Shown here: piece after piece, positions 3,701 through 50,639 of the stretch | Numbering within the stretch: the first letter of the stretch is position 1 | Layout of the letters: every line of letters begins with the position of its first letter | DNA from: Rhizophagus irregularis | Taxonomy: Eukaryota; Glomeromycota; Glomeromycetes; Glomerales; Glomeraceae | DNA length: 64,000 nucleotides | Assembly (NCBI RefSeq): GCF_026210795.1 | Contig: NC_089451.1 | Coordinates: forward strand, 2,588,001 to 2,652,000 | Direction: 5' to 3' | The notes under the pieces: model-generated | Seen by the model: the letters and a program-made list of their open reading frames with translations, nothing else | What the model was told of the DNA's origin: nothing | The model's database searches: none | Made by a program: the position numbers and the translations under genes

Positions 3701-6042
3701 ATAGATTTTTCAGTTAAAGTTGATTCTATCCATCCAGAAGAAATTTGATAACAATCCGAACATAACTTAAATTCAATGTAATTAGGCTCATTTAAACATT
3801 CTTGCTGATAAATTGATTTACCACATAATCCACAATTTTTTACTTTTTCAAAATATTTTTTTGCATAAATTAGCCTAGTACTATTATTCATGACTATTTT
3901 TTTAAAGCATAAAATTTTAGAGCAACTATTACACCACTCCTTAATGTTTTGTGTACAAAAATCTGAGCTTCTTGGTTTATGTTTTCTATTACATGGAAAA
4001 TAATAATTGTAATTATTACATATATATACATCCAAATTATCATTAATAACTGTATATTTAATATATAACATCAAGCAATGCTTGCAATATTTTTGTTTAA
4101 ATAAGAGTGTTGTGGAATAAGACCTTTTACAATAGTAACATTCATTCTCATCATTATTAAAAGGAATAAACATAATTGGTATAATAGATTTAGAGTAATC
4201 TTCTATATTTTCCAAATCTGTGAATTGAAAATATGAAACCAAATCTATTAATGGTTTTAAAGGAAGACAAAGTCTACTTATACAGTTATATATTTCTAAT
4301 TGATTGGAATTCTTTCTATTTATATAATTAGCTATTTGGTTATAATTATATGTATTTATTTTTGTAGAAATAAAACTTTTATCTTCAATACCATTGGTAA
4401 TATCAATAGTAATAGATATAATTCTTTTACATTTTTTACATTGAGACTGATCTGTAATTCCAAATATAATATTTGTTGTCAAACAATATCTGCATCCAGT
4501 ATAAATAATCTTGCAATTTGAGCATAACTTTTGACAATTAGATTTAGATTCTAGAAATTTATCACAAGTTACACATCGATCATAAGCATCCCACCAAGGT
4601 AAATAAAGGATTGGAATGACTTTTTTAATTAAAGTTGATTCTACCCATTCAACAGACATTTGATAACAATCTGAACACAACTTAAATTCAACATAACCAT
4701 AATCTAATTCATCTAAATGTTCTTGCTGATAAATTGATTTACCACAAAATCCACAATTTTGTATTTTTTTAAAATATTTTTTTGAATAAAGCCTAGTACT
4801 GTTATTTGTAACTATTTGTTTAAAGCATAAAATTTTAGAGCAACTATTACACCACTCCTTAATGTTTTGTGTACAAAAATCTGAGCTTCTTGGTTTATGT
4901 TTTCTATTACATGGAAAATAATAATTGTAATTATTACATATATATACATCCAAATTATCATTAATAACTGTATATTTAATATATAACATCAAGCAATGCT
5001 TGCAATATTTTTGTTTAAATAAGAGTGTTGTGGAATAAGACCTTTTACAATAGTAACATTCATTCTCATCATTATTAAAAGGAATAAACATAATTGGTAT
5101 AATAGATTTAGAGTAATCTTCTATATTTTCCAAATCTGTGAATTGAAAATATGAAACCAAATCTATTAATGGTTTTAAAGGAAGACAAAGTCTACTTATA
5201 CAGTTATATATTTCTAATTGATTGGAATTCTTTCTATTTGTATAATTAGCTATTTGGTTATAATTATATGTATTTATTTTTGTAGAAATAAAACTTTTAT
5301 CTTCAATTCCATTGGTAATATCAATAGTAATAGATATAATTCTTTTACATTTTTTACATTGAGACTGATCTGTAATTCCAAATATAATATTTGTTGTCAA
5401 ACAATATCTGCATCCAGTATAAATAATCTTGCAATTTGAGCATAACTTTTGACAATTAGATTTAGATTCTAGAAATTTATCACAAGTTACACATCGATCA
5501 TAAGCATCCCACCAAGGTAAATAAAGGATTGGAATGACTTTTTTAATTAAAGTTGATTCTACCCATTCAACAGACATTTGATAACAATCTGAACACAACT
5601 TAAATTCAACATAACCATAATCTAATTCATCTAAATGTTCTTGCTGATAAATTGATTTACCACAAAATCCACAATTTTGTATTTTTTTAAAATATTTTTT
5701 TGAATAAAGCCTAGTACTGTTATTTGTAACTATTTGTTTAAAGCATAAAATTTTAGAGCAACTATTACACCACTCCTTAATGTTTCGTGTACAAAAATCT
5801 AAGCTCCTTGGTTCATGTTCTTTACATTGAGAATAAATTGTACATATAGATACATCCAAATTGTCATTGTCTGTATATTCGATATATGATATTAAGCAAT
5901 ACTCGCAATATTTTTGATAAAATAGACGTGTTGTAGAATAAGACCCTTTGCAATTGTAACATTCATTCTCACTATTAATAAAAGGAATAAACTGAATCAG
6001 ACCAGGACTAGATCTTGAATCAAGGGAATTTGCAAATTCCAT
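793..6042 (-). CDS. TKL-type protein kinase with four tandem cysteine-rich repeats
   Basis: Seven exons read in phase: 6042-2221, 2148-1952, 1871-1255, 1187-1161 (27 nt), 1091-1052, 953-895 and 824-793, giving about 1597 residues. ATG at 6040-6042 opens the long frame. Residues ~17-1190 hold four copies of a ~306-residue module rich in CxxC pairs (ECYYCKRSYS, RCVTCDKF, CRYCLTTN), probably zinc-binding (inference). The kinase domain follows: glycine loop GGFG near 1241, lysine in VAVK near 1259, HRDFHSGNIL near 1351, DLG in place of DFG near 1370, then an APE motif. Repeats 2 and 3 are almost identical, so they duplicated recently or are kept alike by conversion. It lies convergent to none of the plus-strand kinases and belongs to a different subgroup, because it keeps HRD. 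Likely a cytoplasmic signalling kinase; the substrate is unknown. Confidence 0.85.
2900..5990 (-). repeat. Tandem ~915-bp coding repeat in exon 1 of the kinase
   Basis: Units recur at 915-918 bp spacing; for example the TTGATTAGAATTGTTTCC-type segment at ~3385 reappears at ~4300 and ~5218. The stretch ~3912-4827 is nearly identical to ~4827-5742, differing at very few sites, while the outer units are more diverged. Confidence 0.85.
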
Positions 6043-6449
6043 ATGGTTATATTTAAAAGGTCAGAAAAGATTCAAAAAGGGTTGAGCTCAATTATAACGA
6101 TATTTATGTTTATTTGGCGTTATTTATAATTTCCATTTAAATTTATTATAAATTCTTTATAGAACTTGTATTTTTCTATTTTTCGATTCAAAAGTTCTAG
6201 AATTCCATGGAAGAAATGCTGATATAACAATTTCTTATTTCGGCTAGTATTTAGTATGCAGATCAGGCAAATCGAAAAAAGTCCGATGATCTACAAGTTG
6301 AAAATCTTTTTACATCGAAATAATATTTTCTTTTAAAGAAAAAATTCTTTAAACTTTATAAAGAAATTATTACTCGATTCTTTTAGTTAATAATTTGTCA
6401 ACTTTAATAATCATTCACCTAAAATATTATTAGTATTTATTTACATAAT
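6043..6449. promoter_or_regulatory. Upstream region of the cysteine-rich kinase
   Basis: This is the ~400-bp 5' flank of the minus-strand kinase. It is AT-rich without a coding signal and presumably holds the promoter. No specific motif could be defined. Confidence 0.35.
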
Positions 6450-11938: not shown

Positions 11939-14900
11939 ATGATTAAAAACTTTTTAAATTGGATCAAAACTATAAATATCAAAGATATATACTCATTTAG
12001 GAATCAAGTTCCGATTAAAGAAGTAAATTATGGAATTGATGATATTTCTAAAAAGGAAGATTATCGAATTGCAATTTCTCAAAATGGAAAATTTATTGTT
12101 ACATTTGATACGGGTAAGTTATTAGAAAATAATTTATATATATTTTAATATAATAATTTTAATGATTTTTTTTTTTATTAAATAAATGAATAAATAAATA
12201 GCAAACCTTCGGATTAAAATATTGGAAAATAAAGATCATCGTCCATTCACATCCAGTAAGAAAGAAGTCAATTCCAACGATAATAATAAATATTGTGGAC
12301 TCGACAACCTTGATGAACTAGATGATATTGGTCAAACTATCACTTATTTTAAAATAAATAATGACTTTATGATTGAAAAATTCTATAAAGAAGAATATAA
12401 ACCTTCTTTATTTGAAGTCGATTCTTTAGACAGCGATATAATCAATGCAAGCGACTTTGAATGGTCTATTGATATATCAAACATGCAAGAGATTAATGAT
12501 GGCGGATCTTTTATTCTTATCGCTATATCTCATATAAACGTTAACATGGATATGAGGAGAACTGAAAATAAAAAAATTGATAATAAAAAGAATGATTATA
12601 AAAAAGAAAATCTTAATAAAATAAGATTTAAATGTTCGTCACTGTCTGAAAAGTATGAATTAAAAGATGAAGGTAATAAACCTGACGAAGCTTGCGATAT
12701 TGCAATTAATATGAAACCAAGACCTACAAATAAGATTAGTGAAATAAAAAAGGAATCGCTATTTATCGTTTTGACCTAAAAAAAAATCAAATTGGAAAGG
12801 AAAATTACGTTTTTAATACAGTGACTTGTCATTATTCTAATCAAATTTCAGGAATATGTAGATTTATTGATGATTCAAGTAAAGACGATTCAAAATCGTT
12901 AAACGATTCTCGAATAAAAAGATTTATAATATTGAATTTTCGTGGGATATATAATTTTGAATTTGATGATCATTTTGATTCTTTTAATTTGAATGAAAAG
13001 TTTGAATATCCAACTAATATTAGACGTGAATTAGATATTTGGTACACTGATAATTGCATGAAACGACTTTTATCATGTATTTATGATAAATATTTTTTTG
13101 TTCCACAATACAAAAATGATGTGTTATTACTTAAAGGTGAAGCTTGAAGTCCTTTCCTCTTAAAGATATTATAGTAGATGTATTATTATTAATATAACTA
13201 TAATCTATTTCTAGTTTATGATCTTGCAAAAATGGAATTAGAGACTACTATAAAAAAAAGTAAAAACAAGAATTATTTCACATTAAACTCCAACGACAAC
13301 GCCTTTTCTTTTAGTAGATTACAACTTTGTTTTACTCGAGGAAATAATACTATAAGGTAAGTTACATGGTAGGATGGTACGTGAGTGAATGTAGTTGTAA
13401 AATTTTACATTATGACTAATTTTGTGTTTATTAGGTTGTATTATATAAAAAATGGTTTAGAAGTTGCTTTTAAAAGTTTTAAAGAAATAGAACGAATATA
13501 TTTATTGGAATTTATTGAAAATGATGAAAAGTTGCTTATAATAGGGAAAGGTCTGGAAAAAGAAGGGCTAATATTTGCAATTTGGGATTTATATAAATGA
13601 AGAAAATAAAGAAATAAATGAAATAGAACAAAAATTAAAAGAGATTAATGAAAACAAAGAAATGAACAAAGAAGAAAAGGAGAAAAGAAAACAAGAGATA
13701 ATTGAGATAATTGATAAAAATGAAGGTATAAAGGTGAAAAGGAAAGAAAAAGTAATTAAATTAAAATATATTATAGAAAAATTTCATATGGTAACACACG
13801 CTTGTAAAGCATTAGTACATCTTAATAAGCGTTTTAAAAGTAGTAACCATCTTGCAAATAATTACATTAGAATACACGAAGTAGGTTGATTTTAATAAAT
13901 GAATTTATTCATTTTTAGAAAACAAAGCAATTAATATTTTTTTTTTTTAATCAAAAAGTACGAAAAAATGTTTAGCTATATTGAACATATAGTTTGGAAA
14001 TTTGCTAAATATGAACCAGAAAATTTTAGATTGTTGGATGTTCGATATAATGTTATGAAAAATTTGATTCTTGGTGATTGTGATTATTTGATAAAATTCA
14101 TACTATTTGGAGATGAAGAGGAAACTACTGAAAGCAGTGTGGTTCGACATATACCAAATAGTGAATTATGGCCAGGAAAAATGTTTTTAAGAGATGATGA
14201 TCTTGACTTTGATGAAAGCAATGATATGCTAATAGGTAATAAAAAAATCGTGCCAAGAAATAATATGGAATTAGTAATTTATCATTACAAAGGCAAGTCC
14301 AATAGCATTATTTAACATCATTAGTTACTTGGGTTTTCAAATAATTTAACAATCATTAATTAGTAAATATTTTTGTAATTTACAACTAAATTGCTTTATT
14401 ATTATAGGACGTGAACTTAAAGATACGAATGCTATTGCTTATTTTTTGGAATATTATTCTAGACGTGCAACTAATTATGCAGATTGGATGTGTACCGTTT
14501 CTAAGGCAATTCCTTTGTTATTTAAATATAATTATGGTTTGTATTTTTATTCTAATTAATTTTTATTCGGAAAGAATAAATTTACAATTTTTATATTATT
14601 AAATAGATGATTATGCTAGAAAATTATTTTCTAGAGAATGTTTTATAAATCAGGATCATTCCTTGATTCAAGATTCTAATGAAATTATTCCAAGGGTATA
14701 CTTAGAAAGACGTAATCATAACATTAAATTTAGAGCATTCAGTCCTATAGTCAAACTGAAGTCTATTAAATATGGGTGGTACGATTATTGGATTCGAACC
14801 CCATTTAAATCTTTGTATGATAGTATAATCAAATTAAAAAATGATATAGTAATAATGTATGAAAATTTTGATAATGAACTTGGAAAATCGACGTTAGCTT

Positions 14901-16732
14901 TACGAGTGGTTCCACTTCCCGGTTTTACTACAAATAATATTGTAGAGAAAAAAGTAGAGTATAATTTTTTAAAGATATTATTAAATATTATTCTATTGCT
15001 ATTCATACCACGATTGTACAAAATTGGTCAATCTGAGAGAATTAAGCTAAGCCCCTTTTCTAGGACAATATTGTGTGAGAATGATGATACACATGATATT
15101 TATGACAATCCAGCAATTGAAGCGGTTATCAATTTTCAATGGCAAAAAGCAAAAAATTTCTTCTTTTCTCTCTTCATTCGGTTTCTTGTTTTTGCCACTT
15201 GTTTTGGGTTAGTTAGCTGGGCATATTTGGATCATAGCACTATTATTAATCAAAATTTTTTGTTTATATTGATTATTGTGTTCTATTATTTATCAATTTA
15301 TCAACTTATTACTGAAGTTTTACAGCTTCGTTATCGTGGATTTAAGAAATATTTTAGTGAAATATTTAATATTTCTGATGTAATTTCTACTGTATTTGCT
15401 GTAACAATAATGACAATAATGCTTAAAAATTATCAATTTTCTGATGGTTTTGAAAGTGTTAAAGAAATTAACAATGGATTAATTATTGCGATTTCATTCT
15501 CAATTTTCTTGGTTTGGATTGAATTGGTAATCTTTGATTTGTATTTGATTATTTAAGCTTTTATATGATTAATTAACTAATTTTAGCAATCTTAGATCCT
15601 CTACCTTCGTCTAATATCAGGTAATAATACAAAATTTATATAAAATTATTATTCATATAACTAACATATTCTATTTCGTTTGATACTAGTAATTGGAATT
15701 TATATTTACCACTTCATAATTGTCTTTAAAAAAATACTTCCATTTTTTATATTTATGATGATTGTGGTATTTGCATTTGCACACACAATGTATGGAAACA
15801 TTTTTCTTCCCAATTTATTCAAATTTCAATATTATTAATTTTTCTTACTTTTTTAATTTATGTAGGGTTGTGTTGCTCAAGGATCCTGCAAATATTAGGA
15901 TGAAAGATTCTACATATAGTGGAGTTGCTACAAATTCTTTAACAAATGAGACATTTAATATTAAACTTAAGTCCGATTTTGATCCCAAATCTGACGATAA
16001 TCCATTTACATCCTTTTCTAAAGCAATAATGGCTGCATATTTTTGGACTAGTAATATTTGGGTTCAAATAGATAGATTTGATTTTTGGGCTGTTGATTCA
16101 TATACTTTTATTGCTAGTATATTCCTGGTATTCGTTTTACAAAACATGTTAATAGCTTTTATGAGGTAAGCTTTTTGTAAATATGAATTACTTAATATTT
16201 CCACTTATTTAATTGCTTTGTCTTTTTTAGTGGCGTATATGAAAGTGTAACAGCTACAAGTAGGCTAATTTTGTTAAGACATCAAGCAAATTTCATAGCA
16301 GATTATGAAGCATTGCATCATATTCATCTTTGGAGTCCCGAACCTGAACCAAAACATATTTATTATTATTGTCAAACTAAAACTATTGAAGAATGGTATA
16401 ATGTAAGAAAAGATGGACCCGGTCTTATTTATAAAGATATTGAAGAAAAATTCATTGATAAACATGTTTTTAAAGAAAAAGATTATGATAAATTTTCTAT
16501 TTTGGAATGTAATGATGATAATAATATTAAAAAGAGAATTGAAAATTTTAAAAATATAGGTAATGAAATGAATAATAATATTGAATATTTGATTAAAAGA
16601 TTTAAAAGTAAAAATTTAATTGAAGAAATTGAAGAAATTGAAGAAATTAATGATATGAAAATTGATTTAAAAGCTAATGTTGAAAAATTGTATCATAAAT
16701 TAGAGAAAATGGAGAAATATGAGATTTTGTAA
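11939..16732 (+). CDS. Ion_trans-type (TRP-like) membrane channel, with two frameshifts
   Basis: Eleven exons: 11939-12113, 12202-13136, 13215-13355, 13435-13880, 13959-14292, 14408-14536, 14607-15526, 15596-15620 (25 nt), 15690-15789 (100 nt), 15866-16165 and 16231-16732. The N-terminal half is soluble, with a WD-like ISQNGKFIVTFDT segment. The C-terminal half has about six hydrophobic helices (e.g. FLVFATCFGLVSWAYL, then FIASIFLVFVLQNMLIAF as the last) with a pore-like stretch DRFDFWAVDSYTF between the final two. An acidic, coiled-coil-prone tail follows (EEIEEIEEI). One base is missing near 12745, before an A-run. One extra base is present near 13595, after IWDLY. The intron at 14293 begins GC rather than GT. 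It is either a recently broken gene or carries assembly indels. The ion carried is unknown; membrane location is inferred from the helices. Confidence 0.75.
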
Positions 16733-16939: not shown

Positions 16940-17765
16940 AATGGTGTTCATTCTATGGACAATAAAAATAAGAAAGTAGCTTGAAAGAAGATGAAAAGAA
17001 CGATTCATTTAAATGGTCTTTTGATATATCAAATATGTCATACTAAGAATACTAAGAAGAATGATAGTGGATATTTTATTTACAGCATGTCACAATATCT
17101 CACGTAAACATTGAAGAAGACATGAAATAAGCAAAAGAGAAGAAAATAAAAAGTACGAAAGAAAGATATCTTAGTAAAATAAGATTTGCCATTCGTTTGA
17201 TCATAAATCTGATGAAGCTATAATTAATACACGATCAGAGATTAAAAAAGGAATCGCTATTTATCTTTTGATCTAAAAAAAATGAAAAGGAGAGAAGAAA
17301 AATTACGCTCTTAGCAATGAGATCAATTAAGAGGTGAGATTTTTTTATTATTTGATAGTATCTTTTATTTATACATTCATTTTTTTAGTGGTGTGCATGG
17401 AAATATAGAAACTAAATATAGACAAACTTTATTACGACATCGAGTAATCACATAGCTGATTATGAAGCATTGTATTATATTCATTTTTGGAATCCTGAGC
17501 CTGAACAAAAATATCTTATTATTTTTGACAATCAAAATCTTTAGAAGAATGGTATGATATCGTACAAGATAGGGTGATCAAGGTGCTATATATAAAGATT
17601 TTGAAGAAAAAAAGACATTTACAAAACGTATTTTAAGGAAGAGATTTCGATAAAAGTTCAAGTTGTGATTATGATGTTGTTAATGTCAATATGGAATTTA
17701 AAAAAAATCAAAAATATAAAAAGTGATTTGAATTTTAGTATTCAATACTTGACTAAAAAACTTCT
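16940..17765 (+). pseudogene. Internally deleted copy of the channel gene
   Basis: The first part matches channel exon 2 with stops (an ~EWSIDISNM-like segment, then ISHVNIEEDMK). It then jumps at ~17390, via TTTTTTTAG and TGGTGTGCATG, to the last channel exon (LLRHR, ADYEALYYIHFWNPEPE). Everything encoding the transmembrane helices is missing. Multiple stops and frameshifts follow. It lies directly downstream of the parent gene, so it is a tandem duplicate that lost its centre. Confidence 0.75.
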
Positions 17766-26624: not shown

Positions 26625-29036
26625 ATGTCAATTCATAAAACCAATCCAACGTTTAATGATTTGTTAGAAAGAATAACCACCGAAGAACATATCATACATT
26701 ATGAAATTTCAGAATTCAAAAATTTACAACCAATAGGAAGTGGTTCATTTGGAAGTGTCTTTCGTGCTAATTGGAAAAATACTGATAAATATTTCGCTCT
26801 AAAAAGGTTTAATAACGATAAAACGACGCTAAAAGAGGTTGTCAACGAGGTATCAAGATTCACCATTATAATAATAATGTATATAATTTTTTTTATATAA
26901 TAACTAATTTATAGTTGTTTAAAGATAAAATTACATAAGAGAGTTGATTTTCATGAAAATATTTTGCAGCTCTATGGAATCACAAAAATAGAAGAAACTG
27001 GTAGGTTTATCATGTACCATACAATATTATTAAATGAGTTATTTTTAATAGATGTAATTTTTTTTTATGTGTAGTTCAACAAACATACACACTGGTTTTG
27101 GAATACGCTGACAGTGGTACATTAACAACTTATTTAAATGAGCATTTTAACGAGCTTAAATGGAATGATAAATATCAGTTAGCATTGCAACTAGCCAGTG
27201 CGATAGCGTATATGCATGAATGTGATATTATTCATTGCGATCTGGTAATAATTCATAACTTTGATTTATTGATTTTTATACCAAATAAACTAATCAATAT
27301 TAATGCAATTATAACAGCATTCAGGTAATATACTTATGCATCGGAAAAAGATAAAAGTAGCAGATTTTGGTTTATCAAGAAAAATTTCTTCGTCAAGTAA
27401 TCCGTCAAAACTATTTGGTGCAATACCTTATATGGATCCAAAAGCTTTAAATAAAGATCTAAATTATAAATTAAATAAAAAATCTGATGTATATAGCGTT
27501 GGAATTTTAATGTGGCAAATTTCAAGTGGATATTTACCGTTTTCTACAAAGTCCGCTAATTATGATGAACGTTTTATCTTCATATCTATAATAAATGGTA
27601 AACGAGAAGAAATTATTGTTGGTACTCCCGTTAATTATAGTAATTTATATACAGGTAAATAATAACTAATGATTTTTTTTATGGAATTTACATTTATAAT
27701 TAACAGTAATTCATATTATTTAGAATGTTGGAGATATGAACCAAATGAACGTCCAAATATGCAAGATGTTGTTTCAGAACTTAAAACAATAATTTCTTCT
27801 GAAAAACATGATATAGTTATTGATTTTATTAATGAAACGGAGAATAATTCATTTAATTCATTTGAAATACATAAAATAGCTTCTAGATCAAACAAAGGAA
27901 CTTTAGACTTAAATGATGAATTAATGTTATCAAATAATAGATTGAATATTAATAATATTGATAGTAAAAATAGCTATATACGGTATGATTGGATTTTGGA
28001 TTTATTTAAAATTTTATGGATAATATTTTTAACAAAATCATACAAAATCAAACAAAATGAGAGAAATAAGTTGGGCCCTTTTTCATTTCTTCGATTTCTT
28101 ATTTTTGCCATTTGCTTTGTATTAATTAGCTGGGCATATTTGAATCATAGTACTATTATAAATGAAAAATTTTTAATGGCATTAATTATTATATTCTATT
28201 ATTTGGCATATTACCAACTTGTAACTGAATTGTTACAGTTTAATTATCTTGGACTTAAAAAATATTTTGGTAAAATATTTAACAGTTTTGACATGATTTC
28301 CATTGTACTATCGGTAGCGGTAATGACAAAATTGCTTAAAAATTTTCAAATTTCTGATGGTTTTGAAAGTGTTATAGAATCTGATACTGCGGGAATATCA
28401 TTCTCTATTTTCCTGCTTTGGATCAAACTGGTAGGTTATTTATTGATCATCATCTATATATAAAAATATATTTACCAGATTTTATTATTTTAGATTTTAT
28501 ACCTTCGAAAAATATCAAGTAAAAAAAATTATTCGATTTAAATTAAATAATTTTTACATATAATTTTTATTAATTAACTTATTTTATTTCACTTGATAGA
28601 TATTGGCATCTATATCTATCGCGTCACAATTATTTTCAAGAAAATATTTCCGTTCTTCTTATTTATGTTAATTGTTATACTTGCATCCGCACATACAATG
28701 TAATACAAAAACTTTATTAATTTATTCATTTAGTTTATAAAATTAATTCAACTTTTATTTTTCATATGTAGGTTTATTTTACTTAGAGATACTAAGAATA
28801 TTAAAATAAAAGAAACGACATACACCGGTAGTGCCGCAGATGTTGTTACAGATACAACGTTCAATTTCGAACTTGAAACCCTACGTCTAAAGGAGATAGT
28901 TTCCATTCTTTCCGAGAACATTAGCATTTCCAAAAGCAATACAAAGCTGATAGATACAACATTTGATATCGAACTTGAAATCCTACGTCTAGAGATAGGG
29001 ATGGTTAGGTCGGTCCTGGTCCGGTCTTGGTCCTAG
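26625..29036 (+). CDS. Protein kinase fused to an Ion_trans-type channel, truncated by a transposon
   Basis: Eight exons in perfect phase: 26625-26849, 26925-27000, 27075-27244, 27318-27654, 27724-28430, 28494-28518 (25 nt), 28600-28699 (100 nt) and 28772-29036, giving 634 residues. The N-terminal kinase has glycine loop GSGSFGSV near 38, lysine in ALK at 60, catalytic loop HCDLHSGNIL at 154 (Cys for Arg), DFG at 173, and an [11 protein letters not shown] end near 270. Within exon 5 it passes without an intron into channel sequence (from ~360: [14 protein letters not shown], then [20 protein letters not shown]). It covers the early helices and the pore-proximal exons. Exons 6 and 7 have exactly the lengths of channel exons 8 and 9. 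The pore exon is cut by an hAT element, where the frame stops at 29034-29036. A functional channel is unlikely today. Confidence 0.8.
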
Positions 29037-31620
29037 GACCTTCAAGTCCTATTGAACGGACCCGCGGACAGGTCCTAGCATAAAGAGTCCTAGGACTTAA
29101 GTCCTATCAGGTCCGGTCCAGGACCAGGTCTCTGGACCTGGTCCTGAACTTTAAGTTCTTATGATAATTATTTAATTTATTATAGATATACATAATAATT
29201 TAAATTTTATTCGGGATAAATCAATGATAATCTTTTATTATATGTAGTAAAAAAATGTAATTCAATATAATATTTTAATTTTTTACAATTTATTGTGGTT
29301 TATTTATACTAAACCTTATTTAGTTTAGATCGTTAAACACTAATAAATGACATAATATAAATTCTAATTAAGCCACATTTTTTTCTCCAACGCAATTATC
29401 TATCCAACTCTTCGCACACAAGGACGCTCTTGCAGTTTCCAGTTGCAGTCGATTTTGGGTTTTTGTAATTGTATTACCAGCAATGGAAAATGCTAATTGT
29501 GTAAAATAAGTACGAAATGTGTAAAAAATAAGACGTTAAATAATTATTTTAACCACCAAACCACCTACCCTGTTCACATGCAACGCTTGTGGATTGTATG
29601 GCTAAATAATACCTTGCCATTAATGACAATACCGGAAATTCAGTGAAATGAGCTTGCCACCAAAGAATTACTTCTACATTCTCATCACAAGGCAACGCTA
29701 GGTAGCGTTCTATTTCTGCAAAATCAGGATTATGTGAAGGTAATGAGGGTGAAGCTTGCGGTGTTTCGCCAATTTCTCCTAAACGTTGTTTCTTTAGTTG
29801 GCGAAAATATTCCCTTCCTGATGCATTATTTTCTTTAGGAATTTTAGGAATAGAAGTTAGTAGTCGTGGGTTTAGCTATAATAAAGTGCAAATTGTTCTT
29901 TTAAGGTAACAATTGCTTTTGTTGTTGGTTCGCCTGATTCAAAGACAGTAATTTTATTTCGTGGGTCTAAAATTGTTGCAATTGTAGTAGCATCATCAAG
30001 AATCGTCCAGTATTCCATGATCTTTTGATTTATTGAATCGGCTAACATGTACTGATCATTTTTTTCCATACAGTACTTTAAGTGATCCCGAATTTCATTA
30101 AAATAGAATCGCACGTCGGCTATGGTTGGATATTTTGAACCCGAAAGATTTTTTGTTGCTCTTTCAAGTGGTTCTAAAATGATTATTGTTTCCTATAGTT
30201 ATTTTAAGTAAATTGAGTATTTTATTATTATTTTGATTGTTTATTATTATTCTTAAGTATTTTACGATTAAAGTGATTTCTAATTTTGTGAAAAAATAAA
30301 TAAAAATATATCTTTATACCTTTATTTTTTTCCATGCTGAAGTGTTTGGCATTAAATCTCGTACATTTTCATGTTTGATTGCAAGCATTTTTAACGCCAT
30401 TTCCATTCGTTGAAGTTTGCAAAGCATGTAATAAGTGGAATTCCACCTGGTTTCTACATCAACTTCAGGTCGAAGATATTCCATTTTTTCCATAGAACAT
30501 GACTCACGTAAATCATCACATAACAAAACTGAATTTTTAATTTTTACCATCAACTTACGCACACGTAAAATTTCTTCATCAACTATTTCCAATCCTTGTT
30601 TAGCTGCAAGGTTAAGAATATGTGCTGAGCAGCGGTAATGACTAAAAGAAGTATTATAATCTAAAGCTCTTTCAAATTCTTCTGATAACCTTCTTCCACA
30701 TACTATCATAGCAGATTCATTATCAATAGTGAGTGCTAGTGCTTTACTCACTAAATTGAATTCACTAAGAACACTATTAATCGCAGACGCCATATTAATT
30801 CCTGTATGATAAGTTTTGAACGGAATTATGTCAAGTAAAAAATGCCGGAGAGTCCAGTTTTCGTCAATATAGTGAATGGTTAATCCAAGATATGCTTCAC
30901 TACTTAATGTTGAGGCCCACAAGTCAGCAGTGAATGAGACTTTTCCGGGTATTTTTTTTATATCATAATGGATATTTAGACGACGTTTATTAAATTCTTG
31001 GATAGTCATCTCTTTAATTTGGTGGCAGTCAGGAATTTTATAGCAAGGATCAAAAACATTCATCATATTAACGAATTTTTCATTCTCAACAACTCTAAAA
31101 GGTTGCTGGTCAGCAATTATCCAAGTAATAACAGCATCATCTCGCTCTTCTTTCTCTTTTGCAGGCCATGGGTCTTTACATTTAAACTTTAAGGTTGTTT
31201 GTTTTCGAACTTTTTGAATTACTATACAATGTTTACTTGTAAGATGCCATCCAATACTAGAATTTCCTGACTTAGTAGAAAATACATAACCACAAGTTTT
31301 ACATACAGGTACTCCAGGATGAGAGGGATTTTACAAGTTACATAAGACTATATTGAAGCAGTTTTACGTGAAGGTTCCTCTATTTCATCAACTACTATGT
31401 CATCAATATCTGGAATAAACGCGTCATTTGGATTGTTAAAGACACTGCTCATTATTACATGTACACGTTAAAAAATTAAAAATGTGAAAAGATTAGAATT
31501 ACGAAAATCGGAAAATCTGATCATTATATCATTATATAATATTATTAGCTATTTTATTGGTTAGGACTTTTTAGGACCAGATCTTCACCAGTCCTAAATC
31601 AGGACCTAAAGATCCAACAT
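28996..31620. mobile_element. hAT-superfamily transposon inserted in the channel pore exon
   Basis: Both ends carry clustered GGTCCT/AGGACC motifs. The left end begins near TAGGGATGGTTAGGTCGG and the right end finishes near AGGACCTAAAGATCCAACAT. Host sequence homologous to the channel exon resumes at 31621 (CAATAGAAGCTGGATATTT against CAATAATGGCTGCATATTT in the intact paralogue). The enclosed minus-strand gene is a BED/hAT transposase. The 8-bp target duplication is no longer clear. Confidence 0.8.
29368..31452 (-). pseudogene. BED-finger hAT transposase (broken)
   Basis: ATG at 31450-31452 starts MSSVFNNPNDAFIPDIDD. After a stop and frameshift near 31348 comes a BED zinc finger (CKTCGYVF ... 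HLTSKH). The RNase-H-like core is open from 31066 (SFTADLWAS, LTIDNESAMIV, HYRCSAHILNLAAK, RWNSTYYML). An intron at ~30194-30320 joins it to a helical segment ending FALYYS. A second frameshift at ~29872 leads into a segment with LNPRLLTSIPKIP. An intron at ~29480-29568 joins this to the hATC dimerisation motif (SVACEQ | AFSIAGNTITKT). Stop is at 29368. About 680 residues in all, usual for hAT. Two disablements suggest it is inactive or carries sequence errors. Confidence 0.8.
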
Positions 31621-31650
31621 CAATAGAAGCTGGATATTTAAGGATAGGTA

Positions 31651-32079
31651 CAGTGCATGCAACTTAGTCACAACAAAAAAATTTTAAGTGGCCAAATTTA
31701 AAATGTCAATTTATATCACATGATACATTAAACTTGCAATTTTATTGGTTAGATTTATATAATTAAAATTATAATTCTTAATTCTGGCCAGATTTATATA
31801 TAATTTTAGCCAGATTTATATAGCTAAAGTAATTTTAGCCAGATTTACACATAATTTTGGTCAGAGTAAAGTGGCCAAAATATAGTAAAATATTTTAACT
31901 TTGAATTGCTACTATATTAAAAAACATTTTATAGAAAATTTAAAACTATAGCTTTGTTAAGTTTGTTTTGTTTTATTATTGTATAATTAATACTTTACAT
32001 TTATTATTTTTTTTTTTGAGGGAGTAGTAGTAATTTGAATTTTATCAATTTGGTTGTTGTGACTAAGTTGTATGCACTG
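31651..32079. mobile_element. 429-bp pogo-like MITE in the channel pore exon
   Basis: CAGTGCATGCAACTTAGTCA on the left and TGACTAAGTTGTATGCACTG on the right form near-perfect inverted repeats, flanked by TA at 31649-31650 and 32080-32081. Removing it joins GGATATTTAAGGATAGGTA to GTAATTTGAATCAAAG, which aligns continuously with the intact channel exon (CATATTTTTGGACTAGTAAT). It is therefore an independent insertion close to the hAT element. Confidence 0.8.
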
Positions 32080-32081
32080 TA

Positions 32082-32200
32082 GTAATTTGAATCAAAGAGA
32101 TGAATTTGATTTTGGGCTGTAGATTTAGTTACTTTGATCGCTAGTGTTTTATTTGTAACAATTTTACAGAATATGTTGATGGCTTTTATGGGTAAGTTTT
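32082..32200 (+). pseudogene. Downstream remnant of the kinase-channel fusion (pore and last helix)
   Basis: GAATTTGATTTTGGGCTGTA corresponds to the FDFWAVD pore segment with one T lost. It continues through the last helix (LFVTILQNMLMAFMG) to a donor-like GGTAAG. This shows that the hAT element and MITE split a once continuous exon. Confidence 0.7.
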
Positions 32201-32858
32201 TTTTATCAATTATTTATATATATTTTATTTGTTGTTGTAGAGTCAAATATTAAACAATACAAACTAAAGGTAGTGTTAGGTCAGTTCTTTAACACTTAAA
32301 AATATTAAGCAGATTATTTAATTATGTAAGCAGAAGGTTTATATATAATAATAAACAGTATATAATATATGGTACAGTATATCGAAAAATATCCAATCAG
32401 ACGTGTAGTATAGTCCTTTATGTCAGCATATATACATTCAATCACGAATAAAGGATTTCACACAAATAAAACTTATCAATAAACAATAATGAGATAACCT
32501 TTTATTATTTTAAATAAAACTTTATTATCTTTTCGTTATCTGTTGTTATCTGAAAGAAATATCACTACAAAAAAATTGACCTGTATTTATAATAAAATTG
32601 TACATATAATATATATCTAAATAATTAATAAATTTAACATATTTAACATATTTAACAAATTTCACATATTTAATGAATTTAATATATCTAATCTATCTAA
32701 ATCTAATATATTTTATATATTTAATATGTTCGATATGTCAATCACTCGATCATATTAAACATATCAACCTTTTCGTAATTCCGAACAGCACATGATAATC
32801 ACATGACAGTAGCGTTACATCATCAAAATTCGAACTGATAAAACATTAAGAACCTAAA

Positions 32859-32955
32859 AGAAGATCCCGGTGCTATTTTATAAAGGATTTGTAGAAAAAT
32901 CTACATTTACAAAACATGTCTTTAATTGACGAAGCTTCAATTTTTGTGTATAAAA
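32859..32955 (+). pseudogene. Remnant of the channel last exon
   Basis: The RKDGPG-LIYKDIEEKF segment survives as AAAGAAGATCCCGGTGCTAT and following bases, ending with GACGAAGCTTCAATTTTT. Similar debris is found at ~44690-44860 and ~48960-49200. Confidence 0.6.
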
Positions 32956-33944
32956 TGATGATTAATTACAAATTGCTATGTAATAATTATTGTTTAAATA
33001 AATTAATGAATATATCTTAAAGACTTGACTTACATTATAATAAAATACTGTATATTTATTTATATTATTTATATTTGAATTATATAGTTCATTTTGAAAA
33101 ACGTGGATTATGAATTATCCCTTAAATGATTACAATTTCAAAATTGGTTAATTCATATATACGCAAAATTTCACTAATTATTAATTGGTTTTTTTTATTA
33201 CTGACTTGGAAGTAAATGTTTGTCGACACAAAAAAAATTGCAGGCAATTTCCCTGAAATTTTCAATATTATTTATACCATATATATGTATGTACTGTACA
33301 TTATATTAAATGATTGTGAATTTTTTTTCATTTTTATATAAGAATTAATACAAATTTATTATAAATGTATTATTTTTTTTTAGTAGGATTTTTGATATTA
33401 ATAGTTGTTTTATGTTTATACTTTATACAATACTTTGATATCAATAAACTATGTCGTACTCCTTATGCATAATTTTGATATTTGTGTAAGGTGTAATTTG
33501 ACCTACTTCACAACTATAGTAATTTAGATGGTTGTTGTTGGTAAAAATTTGCAATTTATTTTTACAAAATTATAAAATTCAATAAAATATAATAAATAGA
33601 TAAATATTAATCGTAAAAAGATAAAATTTAGTTTGATTTGTCTTATTGTAATGCACAAAATATTAGTAATTACGTTTATAGTGTTAATAAATAGTGTAAG
33701 AATATGTTATTAACTTTTATAAAAATTTAAGTCATAATAATTCACTGCTAAGACTATAAATGGCCACAATTTAGTACAACATGTTGAGGTATCCCTCTAT
33801 GACTACTAGTATCTAATAATTTACTTATTTTTAAATTATTTTATCTGAAAATTGGTACCATTTTACTAATTTATACCCAGTTTCCGATTGGCTTTCCTTA
33901 TTCTGCTTTCTTATTGGCTTATTCTGCACACGTGATTTTACAAC

Positions 33945-34036
33945 CAATAGAAAATGGTTCATTTGGAAGCGTCTTTCATGCTAATTGGAAAAGTACTGAT
34001 AATACTGAACGATGATAAAAGAGGTTGTTAACGAGG
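33945..34036 (+). pseudogene. Kinase exon 1 remnant
   Basis: Encodes QPIENGSFGSVFHANWKSTD, followed by a shortened, shifted end and GTTGTTAACGAGGTAT, which is the conserved exon 1 donor of the paralogues. No other kinase exons follow before 35100. Confidence 0.75.
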
Positions 34037-34878
34037 TATAAAGATAAATATATATATATCTCTCAGTATACTATGAAATCTATCAAAAGAGTTACAAACT
34101 AATATATATACTGTATTCCGCTCTTGGCCTGTACGACAGATCTGACATTTTACAATGAGGAGGGTTCAGCCGATACATTTGTTTCTGCAACGGAGATGTA
34201 ATCTTGCATAAGTTTGCATAATCTTACGTAATTTATGATTTATAATGTAAACTTACGCATGGTTACGGTATACCGGTTAAAGTAAAAAACAATAAAGCAT
34301 AATACCGTAACAAATATATCATTAACCGAAATTTTATTTTTACTTAATATTTTATATTTTATTGAAAAATTTTTTCTAGCCTATTAAAGAAATATTATCG
34401 CTACTCAATATGATATAAACATTTTAGACGTAAAAAAGAAACTACTTTCACATGCTTTTCTTGATATGAATTCTAGAAAAATCATTAATAGCAGCATTTT
34501 AGTGTGCTACACTTGTTTTTTTAAAATCATTATTTTTCGTTATTTTTTAATAAATACTTTTAAAGACAATTGAAGGAAAATAAGGTTTAGTAATATAATT
34601 ATATTGTTAAATGTGGTTAACACAATGAACTTTGTGTAACATTATCCATCCCATTTAGAAAAAAACACTTCTTTTTATCAAAAAAAAGAAAAAGTTTATT
34701 GTAACCAAGGTTTGATAATCCGAATTATTACTTACGGTCAACTAACCTTAGTAATGTATAGTCTTTTTTAACACGATGTGGTTATGTGTCGAACTTTAGA
34801 AAGAAAAAAAAATGACTAAGTCTTATATAAATAGCAACCAACAACTCCTTATATGGTTATGATAAATAAAATGATCAA

Positions 34879-35119: not shown

Positions 35120-37274
35120 ATGGCGTTTTCTATCGGACAAATTATTTATTTTATTTTATCGGTACTTATATTTGCTATAAAAAGAAAAAAGACCTCAAGA
35201 AATATGTCAGATTTTGTAAACAATCCACAAGATTGGTTTGATAAATCGATTGTCGAAGAATATATCACACTTTATGAATTTTCAGACTTCAATAATTTAC
35301 AACCAATAGGAAGAGGTTCATTTGGAAGTGTCTTTCGTGCTAATTGGAAAAATACTGATACAATTTTCGCTATAAAAAAGTTTAATAATAATAATTCGAC
35401 GCCAAATCAGGTTGTCAACGAGGTATTAGAAATTACAATAATAATAATATAATATTTGTGTTGATACAGTATATGGGGACGCCCGTAGCAAAAAGGGGGG
35501 ATAGGCCAAAAAATTCAAATTTGAGATTTTATTATAATTATATGTCTATTAGTCTAATTATTAAGAAAATATGGTTTTTTATTAATAATATATTAGTAAA
35601 AAAGTTTAATTTTGAAATTTTCTTATTATTTGCATTTTACTTTTATAGAATTAACAAGCAACATAAACTTATTAAAAGAAAATCAATACTCTTAGTAAAT
35701 TGCCTGTAAAATTTAGTTTTAGATAAAAAAAAAAAGGTCTGAAAGTCAATTTATTTCACAATTAAGTGATGATCTGCCAAATTTATCATGTGATTTAAAT
35801 TGCGATTTTTTTTAAAATTACGGAACTATCCCATTCCCCTTTTGCTACGGGCGTCCCCATATAATAATAATTGTTAATTAATATTTTAATTCTTTTAAAG
35901 GTAAAATTACAAAAAAGAGTCGATTTTCATGAAAACATTATACGATTCCATGGAATCATAATAGAGAAAGAAACTGTTAAGTCTTATCGTATGTCATAAT
36001 TTATTATTAAATTATTCTTTTTTAATAGATAAATTTTTTTCTCTAACTAATGCGTATTCAGATCAGTCAGATGTAATTTACTCACTCATTTTAGAATATG
36101 CTGACAGTGGTACATTGTCAACTTATTTAAATGAGTATTTTAATGAGCTTGAATGGAATGATAAATATCGGTTATCGTTACAACTAACCAGCGCAGTAGC
36201 GTGTATACATGAATGTGGTATTATTCATTGCGATCTGGTAACAATTTTTAACCCTAATTTATTGTTTTTTGTACAATCTAATTAATACATACTAACGTAA
36301 TTTTTATAATTATAGCATGCAGATAATATATTTATACATCAGAAAATGATAAAAGTAGCAGATTTTGGTTTATCAAGAAAAATTTCTTCGTCAAGTAACC
36401 CATCAAACCTATTTGGTGCAATACGTTATATGGATCCAAAAGCTTTAAATAAAGATATAAATTATAAATTAAATAAAAAATCTGATGTATATAGCGTTGG
36501 AATTTTAATGTGGCAAATTTCAAGTGGATATCCACCATTTTCTTCAAAATCTACAAAATGCATCAGTAACGACAAACGTTTGACCGTATCTATAGTGAAT
36601 GGTAAAAGAGAAGAAATTATTGATGGTACTCCTGTCAAATATAGCAATTTATACACAGGTAAAGTGATTGTTTTTTAAGTAACTATACAAATACTAGTAT
36701 AATAAATTTTAATAATTAACAGTAATTTACATTATTAGAATGTTGGAGATATGAATCAAATGAACGTCCAAATATGCAAGATGTTGTTTTAAAACTTAAA
36801 ACAATGGTTTTTTCTGAACAACAGGATATAATTATTGATGCTACTAACAAAAAAGTAGATAATTTATTTGAAACATATGGATTAATTTTCGAATCAACCA
36901 TAGATCTAAATAATAAATTAATGACATCAAATAGAAGATTAAATATTAGTAATATTTATATTAATAATATCTTAATTTTACGAAATTGGGTGATAAGAGT
37001 TCCTAGTAATAATTCAACAAGTTTAACTGCATCAGTAGATTTTTATGATTTGATATTTAATAAATTAATTCTCCTTATAAAATTAATAATAATTCCAATT
37101 AAAAAGTATTACCGAGGTTATACTTCTAATCAAATTCAACAACTAATTAATCAAAAAAAATTACAACTAAATCAATTAAATCAAGAAATAGATAATGCCA
37201 TTATAAAAAAATTAATTGGTATTATAATATATTTTGTTTCTTGGATTATTTCTATTATTTCAATATTTGAGTAG
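35120..37274 (+). CDS. TKL-like kinase without Sel1 repeats, possibly splice-defective
   Basis: Five exons: 35120-35422, 35901-35976, 36062-36237, 36316-36658 and 36739-37274, giving ~477 residues if intron 2 is spliced as in the paralogues. ATG at 35120 adds a hydrophobic leader ([16 protein letters not shown]); a second Met at ~35204 ([11 protein letters not shown]) aligns with the usual start. Glycine loop GRGSFGSV, lysine in AIKKF, catalytic loop HCDLHADNIF, DFG in VADFGLS. The C-terminal ~60 residues are hydrophobic and end ISIISIFE. The donor of intron 2 reads ACTG|TTAAGT where the paralogues read ACTG|GTAAGT. Using the GT one base earlier shifts the frame into a stop (ATC AGT CAG ATG TAA). 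Intron 1 carries a MITE. The product may be kinase-dead or absent. Confidence 0.7.
35474..35859. mobile_element. 386-bp MITE in intron 1 of the second kinase
   Basis: TGGGGACGCCCGTAGCAAAA on the left faces TTTTGCTACGGGCGTCCCCA on the right, a perfect 20-bp inverted repeat, with TA at 35472-35473 and 35860-35861. Tc1/mariner-like by its target site. It lengthens the intron from about 75-90 bp in the paralogues to 478 bp. Confidence 0.9.
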
Positions 37275-42959: not shown

Positions 42960-44860
42960 GAATAATCAATCTTATGACAATGGTTTCTTTTGAACAACAT
43001 GAAGAAATTTTTGAAACTATTATTAAAACGAAAAGGAGAATAATTTGTTGGAGATAAGTAAAAAAATTTCTGGATCAAGCAAAAGAACTATATAACTATA
43101 TATAGACTTGAATTATGTAAATATTAATAATACTGATAGTAATAATAACTATAAGTAGTACGATAGTATTTTGGATTTATTTAAAACTAATGGATATTGT
43201 AGGCTAAGCCCTTTTTCTAAGATGATATTGAATGAGAATGATGACAATATTTATGACGATCCAGTAACTGAAACAATCATTAATTTTCGTTGGCAAGAAG
43301 CAAGAAATTTATTTTTGTTTCTCTTTATCTGATTTCTATTTGTTTTATATTAACTAGCAGTTAGTTGGGCATATTTGAATAATGGCAATATTATAAATGG
43401 AAATTTTTTATTGGTATTAATTTTCGTGTTTTATTATTTGGCAGTTTATCAACTTATTACTGAAGTATTACAATTCTATTATCATGGACCTAAGAATTAT
43501 TTTGGTGAAATATTCAATATCTTAACTTTTAAGCACAACTTCCATTAAATGAAAATACAGTCAGAACTCGATATAATGAACCCTCCGGTTAGGCAATTTT
43601 GGATCGTTATATCAGATATTTGATAAATCAAATATTCTTAATATACTGATTATATAGTAAAAAATATAAAAATTCGGTATACCAAATTTTTATTAATAAA
43701 AAAAATGATTTTAATTGTATTACATGTTGTGCTAATTTGTTTATTATTAATATCATATTCTTACAGAAATTATTAAATTCCAAAATTAAGGCATAAATGT
43801 CAGGTGATCTGCTGCGCTGCATAGTGCCAGCTGGGAATAAGTTAATTCTGGCCAGAGTTAGGTGGTAATCGGCTTATCGCGAATAATAAATACATATAAC
43901 TGGTTTATGATCAAACTTCGTTATATATAATATCACGAAATTTATAATAAAATCGGTATATAGTGATAAAATTTAATATAGACGGTTTTGGTTTGAGAAA
44001 AAAGTTCATTATAGGCTAAAATCGGTTTATCACGAATCGTTATATCAAGTTCTGACTGTAACTTAAATGCTTATAAATGTTCATTTTTCCATTTTCTTAA
44101 TTGGTAAGTTATTAATTTGCAATTGATCATCATCTATATAAAAATATACAAATTTTTTATATCTCCGATTGACAGGTACGTATAAAATATGTATTAGCTA
44201 TTAATTTAATAAGAAGTATTATTCTTACTTATCTTCCTCTCAACAGATATTGGTATTTATTTTTATAGTATAATAATTATCGTAATTCTGCTCCTTTTAC
44301 TTATGTCGATTGTAATGTATAAATTCGGACACATAATATTGGTAACTTGGTATGAAAACTTTATTATTTTATTCGTTTCATTTTAAATTAAACTATATTT
44401 ATCTATTTATTATAAATAGATGCACAGATTTTATGAATGAGTATGATGAATCTATTTGCTATAAATCTTTTTCCAAAGCTATAATATTTGCTAGGATTAT
44501 TGATAATTTGGTTCAAAAAATGAAGATAATTTGCTTACTTTGATTGTTTGTATATCCCTTGTAATTATTACAAATCATAACTGATAATTGCTATTCTTAC
44601 GGTGTAAAGTCTTTTTTTTTTTAAAATAAATTTAATTATTATTAACTTTTATTTATACATTTGTTGTTTTAGTATAATATCATAAACTAAAATAGATGAG
44701 CATTATTAAGTCATCGAGCGAATCTTATAGCAGATTATAAACTTGAACCAAAACATATTTATTATTTTGGACAATCTAATATATTAGAAGATTCTTATTT
44801 ATAAAGGATTTGAATTTTAATTGATGAAGCTTCAATTTTTTGTATATAAATATGAAGATT
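42960..44860 (+). pseudogene. Second kinase-channel fusion, decayed and split by a MITE
   Basis: It starts with kinase-tail sequence (MVSFEQHEEIFETI, like the [18 protein letters not shown] of the fourth kinase). It continues with SNNNYK*YDSILDLFK, the same junction as the intact fusion ([16 protein letters not shown]). Then come channel helices (VSWAYLNNGNIINGNFLLVL, FYYLAVYQLITEVLQFYY), the IGIYIY exon at ~44247, an FSKAIIFA segment at ~44460 and last-exon debris to 44860. Stops and frameshifts are many. The kinase catalytic domain itself is missing upstream. A pogo-like MITE interrupts it at 43558-44058. Confidence 0.75.
43558..44058. mobile_element. 501-bp pogo-like MITE
   Basis: CAGTCAGAACTCGATATAA and TATATCAAGTTCTGACTG are terminal inverted repeats, with TA on both sides (43556-43557, 44059-44060). 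Internal ATCGTTATATCA motifs repeat near both ends, as in the element at position 1. Confidence 0.85.
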
Positions 44861-48944: not shown

Positions 48945-49200
48945 TTTGTGGCGTGTATAAAAGCAACACAAACTAAAAAGTAAGCAAAATTTGTTAAGAC
49001 ATTGGGCGAATCTTATAGCAGATTATGAAGCGTCCATCATACTCATTTTCAAAATCGTGAACCAACGAAACGTATTTATTATTTTGGTCAATATAAAACA
49101 TTAGAAGATTGATATGTTAATAGAAAAGATGACCAAAAGAAAATCTACAAATGATTTTAATTGATGAAACTTCAATTTTGTAAATGAAAAATGATGATTA
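48945..49200 (+). pseudogene. Third remnant of the channel last exon
   Basis: GGCGTGTATAAAAGCAACAC, then sequence like LLRHWANLIADYEA and EPTKRIYYFGQYKTLED with stops, ending GATGAAACTTCAATTTTGT. It precedes the third kinase just as the remnant at 32859 precedes the second kinase. Confidence 0.7.
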
Positions 49201-50505
49201 AAATATATTGCAATTTGTAAAATAAGAATTGAAAACAAAAAATTTTAAAAAAATCATAAAATCAAATATATCGACAAGAAAATTATTTTACAGTATACAA
49301 AATATGAATTAATTTAAACTTATTTTGAAAAAATATGATTTAATATTTATTATACTAAACTTAATTATTTAAATTTAAAGTACTTAGCATTCTGGAAATT
49401 TTTTTAGGCGACGGGGTGTAATCTTGCATAAATTTGTTTTTATAATTTATAACGTAAGCTTACGTATGGTTACACCCGGTACAGGGTTACGTATCATGAT
49501 TATTCCCAATTCCACATTATCCGATAATTTAAAATTCATGAGAAAAATTTTTTCTGGCCTATGAAATACTTTTAATGAAATATCAGATATTGTTATGATG
49601 TTCCAAAAATCATCATATCTAGTAATAGAATATTTATTAAGTTGATTGGACCGACATAGTATGCTGTATATTAATACAGTTGTTATATTTAATATAGTTT
49701 TATTAGTATTAAATTCTACTTCTAAATTAAGGTTATCTCGCTAGTGTTACCTTTATTTGTAGTTGCTATACTCTATTTACGTCTGATTAGAATTTTCGTT
49801 TACATGCTAATTAAGTAATTTGATAGACTGTCATGCGCTCTACAAATGACGCATTTAAAAAATGAAATCTTACTTTAATATAACTTTAATAAGACAGGTC
49901 AATAATGGATAAATTTCGGTCCTTACGTGTTATAATAATATTATACGTCATAAATAAATATTCCGAAATTTTTAGGGGATAAAAAGTAATAACGGTTATT
50001 AAATACTTATTATCTTTCAACTTTCTCTTTTTTGATCTGAATACAGTAATAGCTGCATTTAATGTTTTAGTGTGCTACACTTTTTTTCTGATCATTATTT
50101 TTAGTAAAAAAAAAATAAATTTTTATAAAAATAACTATTAATATCATGACAAACACTTTTTAACTGTAAAATAATATTTCATTTAACAATGAATAGTGCT
50201 TAAACTATACATATGTGGTTAAATGAAAAATTTTTTTTTGCAGAAATTTGATTAATATGTGTGTTAAAATATATCAAATAATGTACCGTTCAGTCTTTTT
50301 TAACACGAAAGCATCTAAATTTGGAAGAAATTTCTTTGAACCATTGAATGATACAAACTTAAAATACAAATATGTTCAACAATTTCCCCTTATTTGTTAT
50401 AAATGATTATTTTGCAAGTGATCAACAAATGTTTATTTAGGGTGGACATGTCCGGTGACTGAATTACTAACCCTATTTGGTCAAGAAGCATAACAATTTT
50501 GCCCC
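49201..50505. other. Upstream region of the third kinase, partly duplicated from 34.2-34.9 kb
   Basis: Shared blocks include GGTGTAATCTTGCATAA (~49426 / ~34198), TTTTAGTGTGCTACACTT (~50079 / ~34497) and CAGTCTTTTTTAACACGA (~50291 / ~34760, where it reads TAGTCTTTTTTAACACGA), in the same order. No gene is visible. Confidence 0.6.
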
Positions 50506-50522: not shown

Positions 50523-50639
50523 AACTTAATAACTATTATTAAATAGTGTTAGTAAATGAGAAATAAATTAAATTTCTTCTCTCTTTATAAACCTAATAAA
50601 AACCAAAAAAAAAAAATATTAATAAAAATTCCAAGAAAA

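Follow-up and report, generated by a model that had tools for sequence, protein, structure and literature searches.

The window analysed here is a 64,000-nucleotide stretch of the Rhizophagus irregularis genome (C23:2588001-2652000), in which kinase genes of the K family and TRPV-like channel genes are interleaved in one chromosomal array (Table 1). Genome-wide searches covered 146.7 Mb in 32 contigs. Searching with the channel part of the fusion gene described below gave 61 match rows at 59 loci, two loci having two rows each (76 of 76 candidates scored), and 28 of the 59 loci lie within C23:2.25-2.84 Mb. The C-terminal 615 residues of channel A contain a Pfam Ion_trans match (7.3e-9), and its best solved-structure matches are to TRPV1, although weak (0.014). 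A 38-exon profile built from channel A and 37 paralogues matched TRPV5/6 best, again weakly (0.018), and a Pfam scan of those exons called PKD_channel in four and Ion_trans in one, such an exon alone being a weak match. Of 47 usable exon stretches, 37 entered the paralogue alignments, ten short or distant ones being omitted. Genome-wide, PF00520 matched 26 times (84 of 84 candidates scored), never on C23, so this model misses these channel exons when they are taken one by one. When PF00520 and PF07714 matches were paired by eye, the closest pair lay on C26, about 4 kb apart and on opposite strands; with PF07714 drawn from 145 of 4199 candidates, the pairing proves nothing.

Table 1. Features of the kinase-channel array and of the two fusion copies (positions within the window)
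Feature	Position	Strand	Description
Channel A, separate TRPV-like channel gene	11939-16732	+	Start from the earlier note; C-terminal part modelled
Copy 1, spliced model	26625-26849, 26925-27000, 27075-27244, 27318-27654, 27724-28430, 28494-28518, 28600-28699, 28772 onward	+	Eight exons
Copy 1, kinase exons 1-4	26625-27654	+	Glycine loop, ALK lysine, HCDLHSGN catalytic loop, DFG; GT-AG model; Pkinase
Copy 1, junction exon	27724-28430	+	Kinase domain end and kinase tail (to about 27975), then pre-S1 and S1-S4
Fusion junction stretch, common to copy 2	27976-28004	+	27983-28022 matches copy 2 at 34/40 positions
Deletion site relative to L001	28084-28086	+	About 105 nt (35 residues, in frame); removes pre-S1 motif DNPATEAV..RW
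25-nt exon (S4-S5 region)	28494-28518	+	Same length in channel A and L001
100-nt exon (S5 region)	28600-28699	+	Same length in channel A and L001
Pore exon start	28772-28998	+	Net 14-nt loss after about 28870 shifts the frame; alignment to L001
hAT transposon in pore exon	28998-31612	-	Transposase frames; PF14372 1.3e-9, PF05699 4.7e-10
MITE	31649-32081		35-nt terminal inverted repeats, 91% complementary; TA at both extremes
S6 exon remnant	32079-32204	+	89% DNA identity to L001; two 1-nt gaps, the second at the exon end
Channel C-terminal remnant	32857-32966	+	74% DNA identity to L001 6317-6436; separated from S6 by unmatched sequence
Kinase paralogue K2	35204-37274	+	
Copy 2, decayed	42971-43520	+	Kinase tail, same junction, pre-S1 and S1-S3, with stops; DNA homology
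Second MITE-like element, within copy 2	43556-44060		24-nt inverted repeats, 92% complementary; TA at both ends
Kinase paralogue K3	50556-52255	+	
Kinase paralogue K4 with Sel1 repeats	60023-62832	+	Upstream of channel L001, same strand

Among the 150 of 449 genome-wide candidates scored, the closest three relatives of the kinase tail of the fusion gene are K2, K3 and K4, all in the window. K4 is 80% identical in DNA to the fusion kinase and has Sel1 matches (6.4e-31 and 9.7e-40) on two downstream frames; its Sel1 region is split over the overlapping frames 61143-62090 and 62071-62832, the result of a frameshift or else of an intron missing from the model. At the point where K4 runs on into Sel1, K2 (36726-37274) and K3 (51695-52255) end in a similar hydrophobic C-terminal stretch (a string of 24 residues and its like), and these two genes may be forms of K4 that are either tail-anchored or cut short. 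An isolated fragment at 33937-34045, matching exon 1 of the fusion-family kinases at 92% and 89% over 66 and 38 nt, represents another broken kinase copy. Channel C-terminal fragments at 17443-17760, 44691-44798 and 48979-49201 are apparently left over from additional channel copies; the one at 44691-44798 might belong to the distal end of copy 2, and the one at 48979-49201 sits just upstream of K3. Directly downstream of K3 is a MULE transposase (52970-54568; PF10551 1.7e-24, FAR1 9.9e-11). On the minus strand, a 1299-aa open frame (2161-6060) is composed of repeated cysteine-rich units with near-identical internal copies, for which no Pfam match exceeded the cut-off; the frame runs into an apparent kinase N-lobe (GGFGIIYKA, VAVKRF), and kinase similarity goes on at 1364-1900. 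Outside the window, the channel loci L002 (C23:2531170) and L003 (C23:2492970) have short open frames over S1-S4 (171 and 134 aa), and their matches change frame near the pre-S1 motif, so that both look damaged at about the same place as the fusion gene.

All seven introns of the fusion gene, copy 1, are GT-AG, and in the spliced model a 634-aa frame is open as far as a stop at 29036. Pkinase (4.9e-49, aa 32-287) and PK_Tyr_Ser-Thr (1.3e-47) are the best Pfam families of its kinase, both within aa 32-289, and the alpha-kinase family is absent among the nine Pfam families listed for it. Kinase exons 1-4 share 77-80% DNA identity with K3 and K4 in the window. Their translation contains the catalytic motifs of a protein kinase: a glycine loop, the ALK lysine, HCDLHSGN and DFG. 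The motif set of an active kinase is complete, with phosphotransfer as the predicted activity.

Kinase and channel transmembrane sequence form one open frame in copy 1, and a single exon holds the junction. This exon (27724-28430) is open for 235 codons; none of 5000 single-base shuffles stayed open. By homology to channel A and to the nearest channel, L001, the transmembrane part comprises S1-S5 only. The channel half is 86% identical in amino acids to L001, and Pfam called neither Ion_trans nor any other channel family in the fusion protein. The next two exons correspond in length both to L001 and to channel A (15596-15620 and 15690-15789).

These results bear out the core of an earlier note on this DNA, which had described a kinase running in frame into TRP-like transmembrane sequence from 26625 onward, then two exons whose lengths (25 and 100 nt) recur in channel A, and a domain order that reverses that of TRPM6/7, with the kinase N-terminal and the channel sequence after it. 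Two points need amending. The note placed the run from kinase to channel in a single exon, which is correct for the junction but not for the kinase domain, spread over five exons. Its interval of 26625-29036 is kinase-channel sequence except for a final stretch of some 39 nt, starting near 28998, which is transposon, and the frame of copy 1 ends inside that element. That two adjoining genes were misread as one, or that the assembly is wrong, is highly improbable: the acceptor of the last kinase exon lies just before 27724, no stop stands ahead of the transmembrane segments, and the same junction occurs at another place.

DNA homology to K4 stops at 27975, and DNA homology to L001 starts at 28005. 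A genome-wide DNA search with the copy 1 junction returned four candidates, all scored: copy 1 itself, K4, K3 and a second locus in the window, copy 2. The K4 and K3 matches end at the junction, and copy 2 alone crosses it (E 3.1e-14): positions 42971-43196 align with 27780-28022 straight over the junction at 68.5%, after which comes channel sequence with S1-S3. In the reverse genome-wide search from copy 2 (25 matches), the junction was crossed only by copy 2 itself and the fusion. Judged from the genomic sequence, the kinase-channel fusion is real and present twice, given that copy 2 is the only other locus genome-wide to cross the same junction; this second locus in the window is new here. 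In copy 2, stop codons interrupt each of the three frames of 42960-43560, and the kinase query detected no kinase domain in it. The earlier note had held that the lack of any other locus with the same domain order would count against it; since copy 2 crosses the junction, that objection stands by half at most, though copy 2 is without a detectable kinase domain.

Besides the fusion there are 58 channel loci, of which 53 were taken with 1,400 nt upstream and 50 nt downstream, L001-L003 with longer flanks, and channel A and copy 2 (L004) within the window. Copy 2 is the only credible one among them with kinase sequence upstream (1,400 nt examined for 53), and the kinase query found nothing better than E 1.2 in the fetched channel loci. 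Partial overlaps with the junction query upstream of S1 in L007, L025, L031 and L048 were taken as probable ordinary channel sequence.

The channel halves of the two copies are strongly divergent. Copy 1 is at a dS of 0.15 from L001 and of about 1.1 from copy 2 (127 codons), the latter a rough value, as are all codon comparisons with copy 2, in which the alignment runs over stops. The nearest channels also differ, being L006 for the channel part of copy 2 and L001 for copy 1. That the channel of copy 1 is far nearer to L001 than to copy 2 is not what a simple duplication predicts, and either later gene conversion or two independent fusions at nearly the same point would be needed. With a slightly longer query, the junction stretch of copy 2 alone scored 45 against L006, where shuffles reached no more than 38; some of the sequence shared at the junction thus probably derives from a channel, as independent fusions could allow. 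However, the junction stretches of the two copies (27976-28022 and 43146-43196) score 47 to each other, compared with 40 and 39 for the best of 57 other channel sequences. Like-for-like stretches over the junction score 88 between the copies (maximum of 29 in 200 shuffles), compared with 40 and 45 for the best of the 57 other channels. With the junction crossed at no other locus genome-wide, we regard independent fusions as quite improbable.

Both copies carry disabling lesions, a frameshift and insertions in copy 1 and stops in copy 2. L001 4897-5002 has no counterpart in copy 1, and the 35 residues missing there include four columns conserved at a level of at least 90% when the fusion is aligned with 37 paralogues (38 rows). 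The pre-S1 motif is likewise conserved when channel A replaces the fusion in the alignment, and the lost residues lie in the profile segment with the weak TRPV5/6 match (0.018). The pore exon of copy 1 is without 10 and 4 nt relative to L001, which causes a frameshift ahead of the pore, and contains a partial tandem duplication (28850-28899 and 28952-28998, a direct repeat). The hAT element that interrupts this exon has edges uncertain by a few bases, with channel homology restarting at 31613, and no right terminal repeat was identified for it. Both flanks of the MITE at 31649-32081 match adjoining parts of L001 around 5907. Pore and S6 are out of frame and interrupted, leaving copy 1 without pre-S1 motif, in-frame pore or in-frame S6. 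As far as its DNA can tell, copy 1 is not a working channel now, and any protein made from it today would consist of a kinase and five transmembrane segments without a pore. Although the junction is in frame and a second locus shares it, the idea that copy 1 is at present a working N-terminal kinase-TRPV channel, or reversed chanzyme, is extremely improbable, given the frameshift before the pore, the transposon in the pore exon, the two 1-nt gaps in S6 and the missing pre-S1 motif; the genomic sequence already contradicts it, unless splicing restores pore and S6.

Between the channel half of copy 1 and L001, differences at codon positions 1, 2 and 3 number 12/190, 11/190 and 13/189, and aligned bases are identical at 533/569 exon and 205/214 intron positions. 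The pairwise dN/dS is 0.58, with a 95% interval of 0.32-1.09 that includes 1 (here and below, counts for dN/dS omit codon pairs with a stop in either sequence), and this interval is compatible with weak constraint. On the fusion branch, synonymous and nonsynonymous changes in the channel half stand at 5:27 with channel A as the outgroup, 4:15 with L002 and 6:23 with L003, indistinguishable from neutral (about 1:3) in all three cases. The L001 branch departs from neutral with two of the three outgroups, and the difference between the two branches is significant with just one of them (p 0.018, 0.19 and 0.20). These counts give no clear sign that the channel half of copy 1 has been constrained since its split from the closest channel. 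Pointing toward constraint and against a relic are the gap columns between copy 1 and L001, 25 in introns and 10 in exons, and the frame is open through S5, more intact than would be expected of an old pseudogene. The proposal in the earlier note of a past physical link between phosphorylation and ion flux is left unsupported by a channel half without clear constraint, pre-S1 motif, in-frame pore or in-frame S6. A functional kinase-channel phase before the split from the closest channel might have existed.

The kinase half differs from K4 at 34/348, 29/346 and 64/346 of codon positions 1, 2 and 3, a third-position excess (the codon-position comparison omits K4 against K3 and channel A against L001, for which exon bounds were guessed and were partly out of phase). 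Pairwise kinase dN/dS of copy 1 is 0.22 against K4, 0.30 against K3 and 0.59 against K2. On the fusion branch, the kinase domain has synonymous and nonsynonymous changes of 13:26 with K3 as the outgroup (p 0.26, neutral-like) and 16:23 with K2 (p 0.025). The K4 branch compares with it at 21:9 versus 13:26 (K3 outgroup, p 0.004) and 24:17 versus 16:23 (K2, p 0.18), the fusion branch being proportionally richer in nonsynonymous changes, and much of the pairwise constraint (0.22 against K4) may predate the fusion. The kinase function of copy 1 may persist, since the motifs are kept, third positions are in excess against K4, and the fusion branch is non-neutral with K2, although not with K3. It is conceivable that the gene is useful today as a membrane-tethered kinase, in which five transmembrane segments would anchor an active kinase while channel function is gone. 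Complete kinase motifs, a frame open through S5, intact splice sites, the third-position excess and the three pairwise dN/dS values would all suit such a protein, but the excess of nonsynonymous changes on the fusion branch over the K4 branch (significant with K3 and not with K2), a transmembrane half without clear constraint and a frame that terminates inside a transposon argue against it, and we consider it unlikely.

The best-known joining of a kinase to a TRP channel is that of the TRPM6 and TRPM7 chanzymes, in which, as described in passages of PMC12799467, a TRPM channel carries a C-terminal alpha-kinase within the same polypeptide. Copy 1 also encodes a kinase and a TRP-type transmembrane domain in one polypeptide, but its kinase is conventional and stands ahead of a TRPV-like, pore-less S1-S5 remnant. 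By that description, copy 1 is not a chanzyme in the TRPM6/7 sense, since it departs from TRPM6/7 in kinase type, in order and in channel family, and its channel is incomplete. Phytophthora parasitica has Ion_trans and guanylate cyclase proteins, with an N-terminal Ion_trans followed by a nucleotide cyclase, according to portions of PMC12223298, which cites, by title, adenylyl cyclase/channel proteins of Plasmodium and ciliates. As characterized there, the P. parasitica proteins resemble copy 1 in having an enzyme domain joined to ion-channel transmembrane sequence; however, their cyclase follows the channel domain, whereas in copy 1, a damaged gene, the kinase comes before the channel part. 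The Phytophthora infestans kinome includes a kinase with RyR domains, which is not an Ion_trans fusion in the sections cited here (PMC3019232). In the open-licence literature, none of the matches listed reports a kinase placed N-terminally to a TRP channel, which is weak evidence of absence.

Within R. irregularis, passages of Manley et al. 2023 (PMC10234402) report 32 TRPV-like genes, many with neighbouring gene numbers, and the channel loci described here are presumably those published genes. The channel half of copy 1 is a copy of such a gene, going by its identity to L001 and the weak matches of its paralogues to TRPV1 and TRPV5/6. It differs from that family, as outlined there, in having no N-terminal part, pre-S1 motif, in-frame pore or S6, and in having a kinase in the N-terminal position. 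The same source gives 2,533 kinase genes, and excerpts of PMC8647823 describe high-copy kinase and Sel1-like genes as well as Mutator-like elements near highly expanded gene families. The fusion kinase groups with K2-K4, of which K4 has Sel1, and it departs from the high-copy kinases of that account in that its own C-terminus has been exchanged for channel sequence. So far as these sources go, the number of kinase genes and the Mutator-like elements near expanded families fit a rearranging background, and the MULE after K3 is in line with them.

Taken together, we think it very probable that the locus records a fusion born by recombination in a mixed kinase/TRPV-like array, which was duplicated and has since become a decayed chimeric pseudogene or, at most, a pore-less, five-segment tethered kinase. 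The parental kinase and channel genes would have been arranged in tandem on the same strand, as K4 and L001 are today. Ectopic recombination or deletion could then have fused a K-family kinase tail with the terminal portion of a channel gene just before S1, replacing both the kinase's own C-terminus and the large cytosolic N-terminus of the channel; the frame and exon structure of both parents run on through the join. The shared junction suggests that the fused segment was duplicated after one such event, in which case gene conversion or a second recombination must later have affected one copy, and the deletion at 28084-28086 could mark its breakpoint. Both copies have decayed, partly via transposons, and the order of duplication and decay given here is the one we infer. 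Before the damage, the fused gene might have produced a working membrane protein, a TRPV-like channel with a conventional kinase at its cytosolic N-terminus that would constitute a reversed-order channel-kinase independent of TRPM6/7, duplicated and maybe intact in other isolates or species, but we give this little credence.

The locus preserves the breakpoint, a second copy and the decay of the fusion, and so shows how a mixed array can give rise to an in-frame signalling chimera that is then broken by transposons. The junction can serve as a marker for other isolates, in which an intact orthologue would be an unusual channel-kinase. Absence or decay in all isolates would make the locus a clear example of a new gene that arose by fusion and failed.
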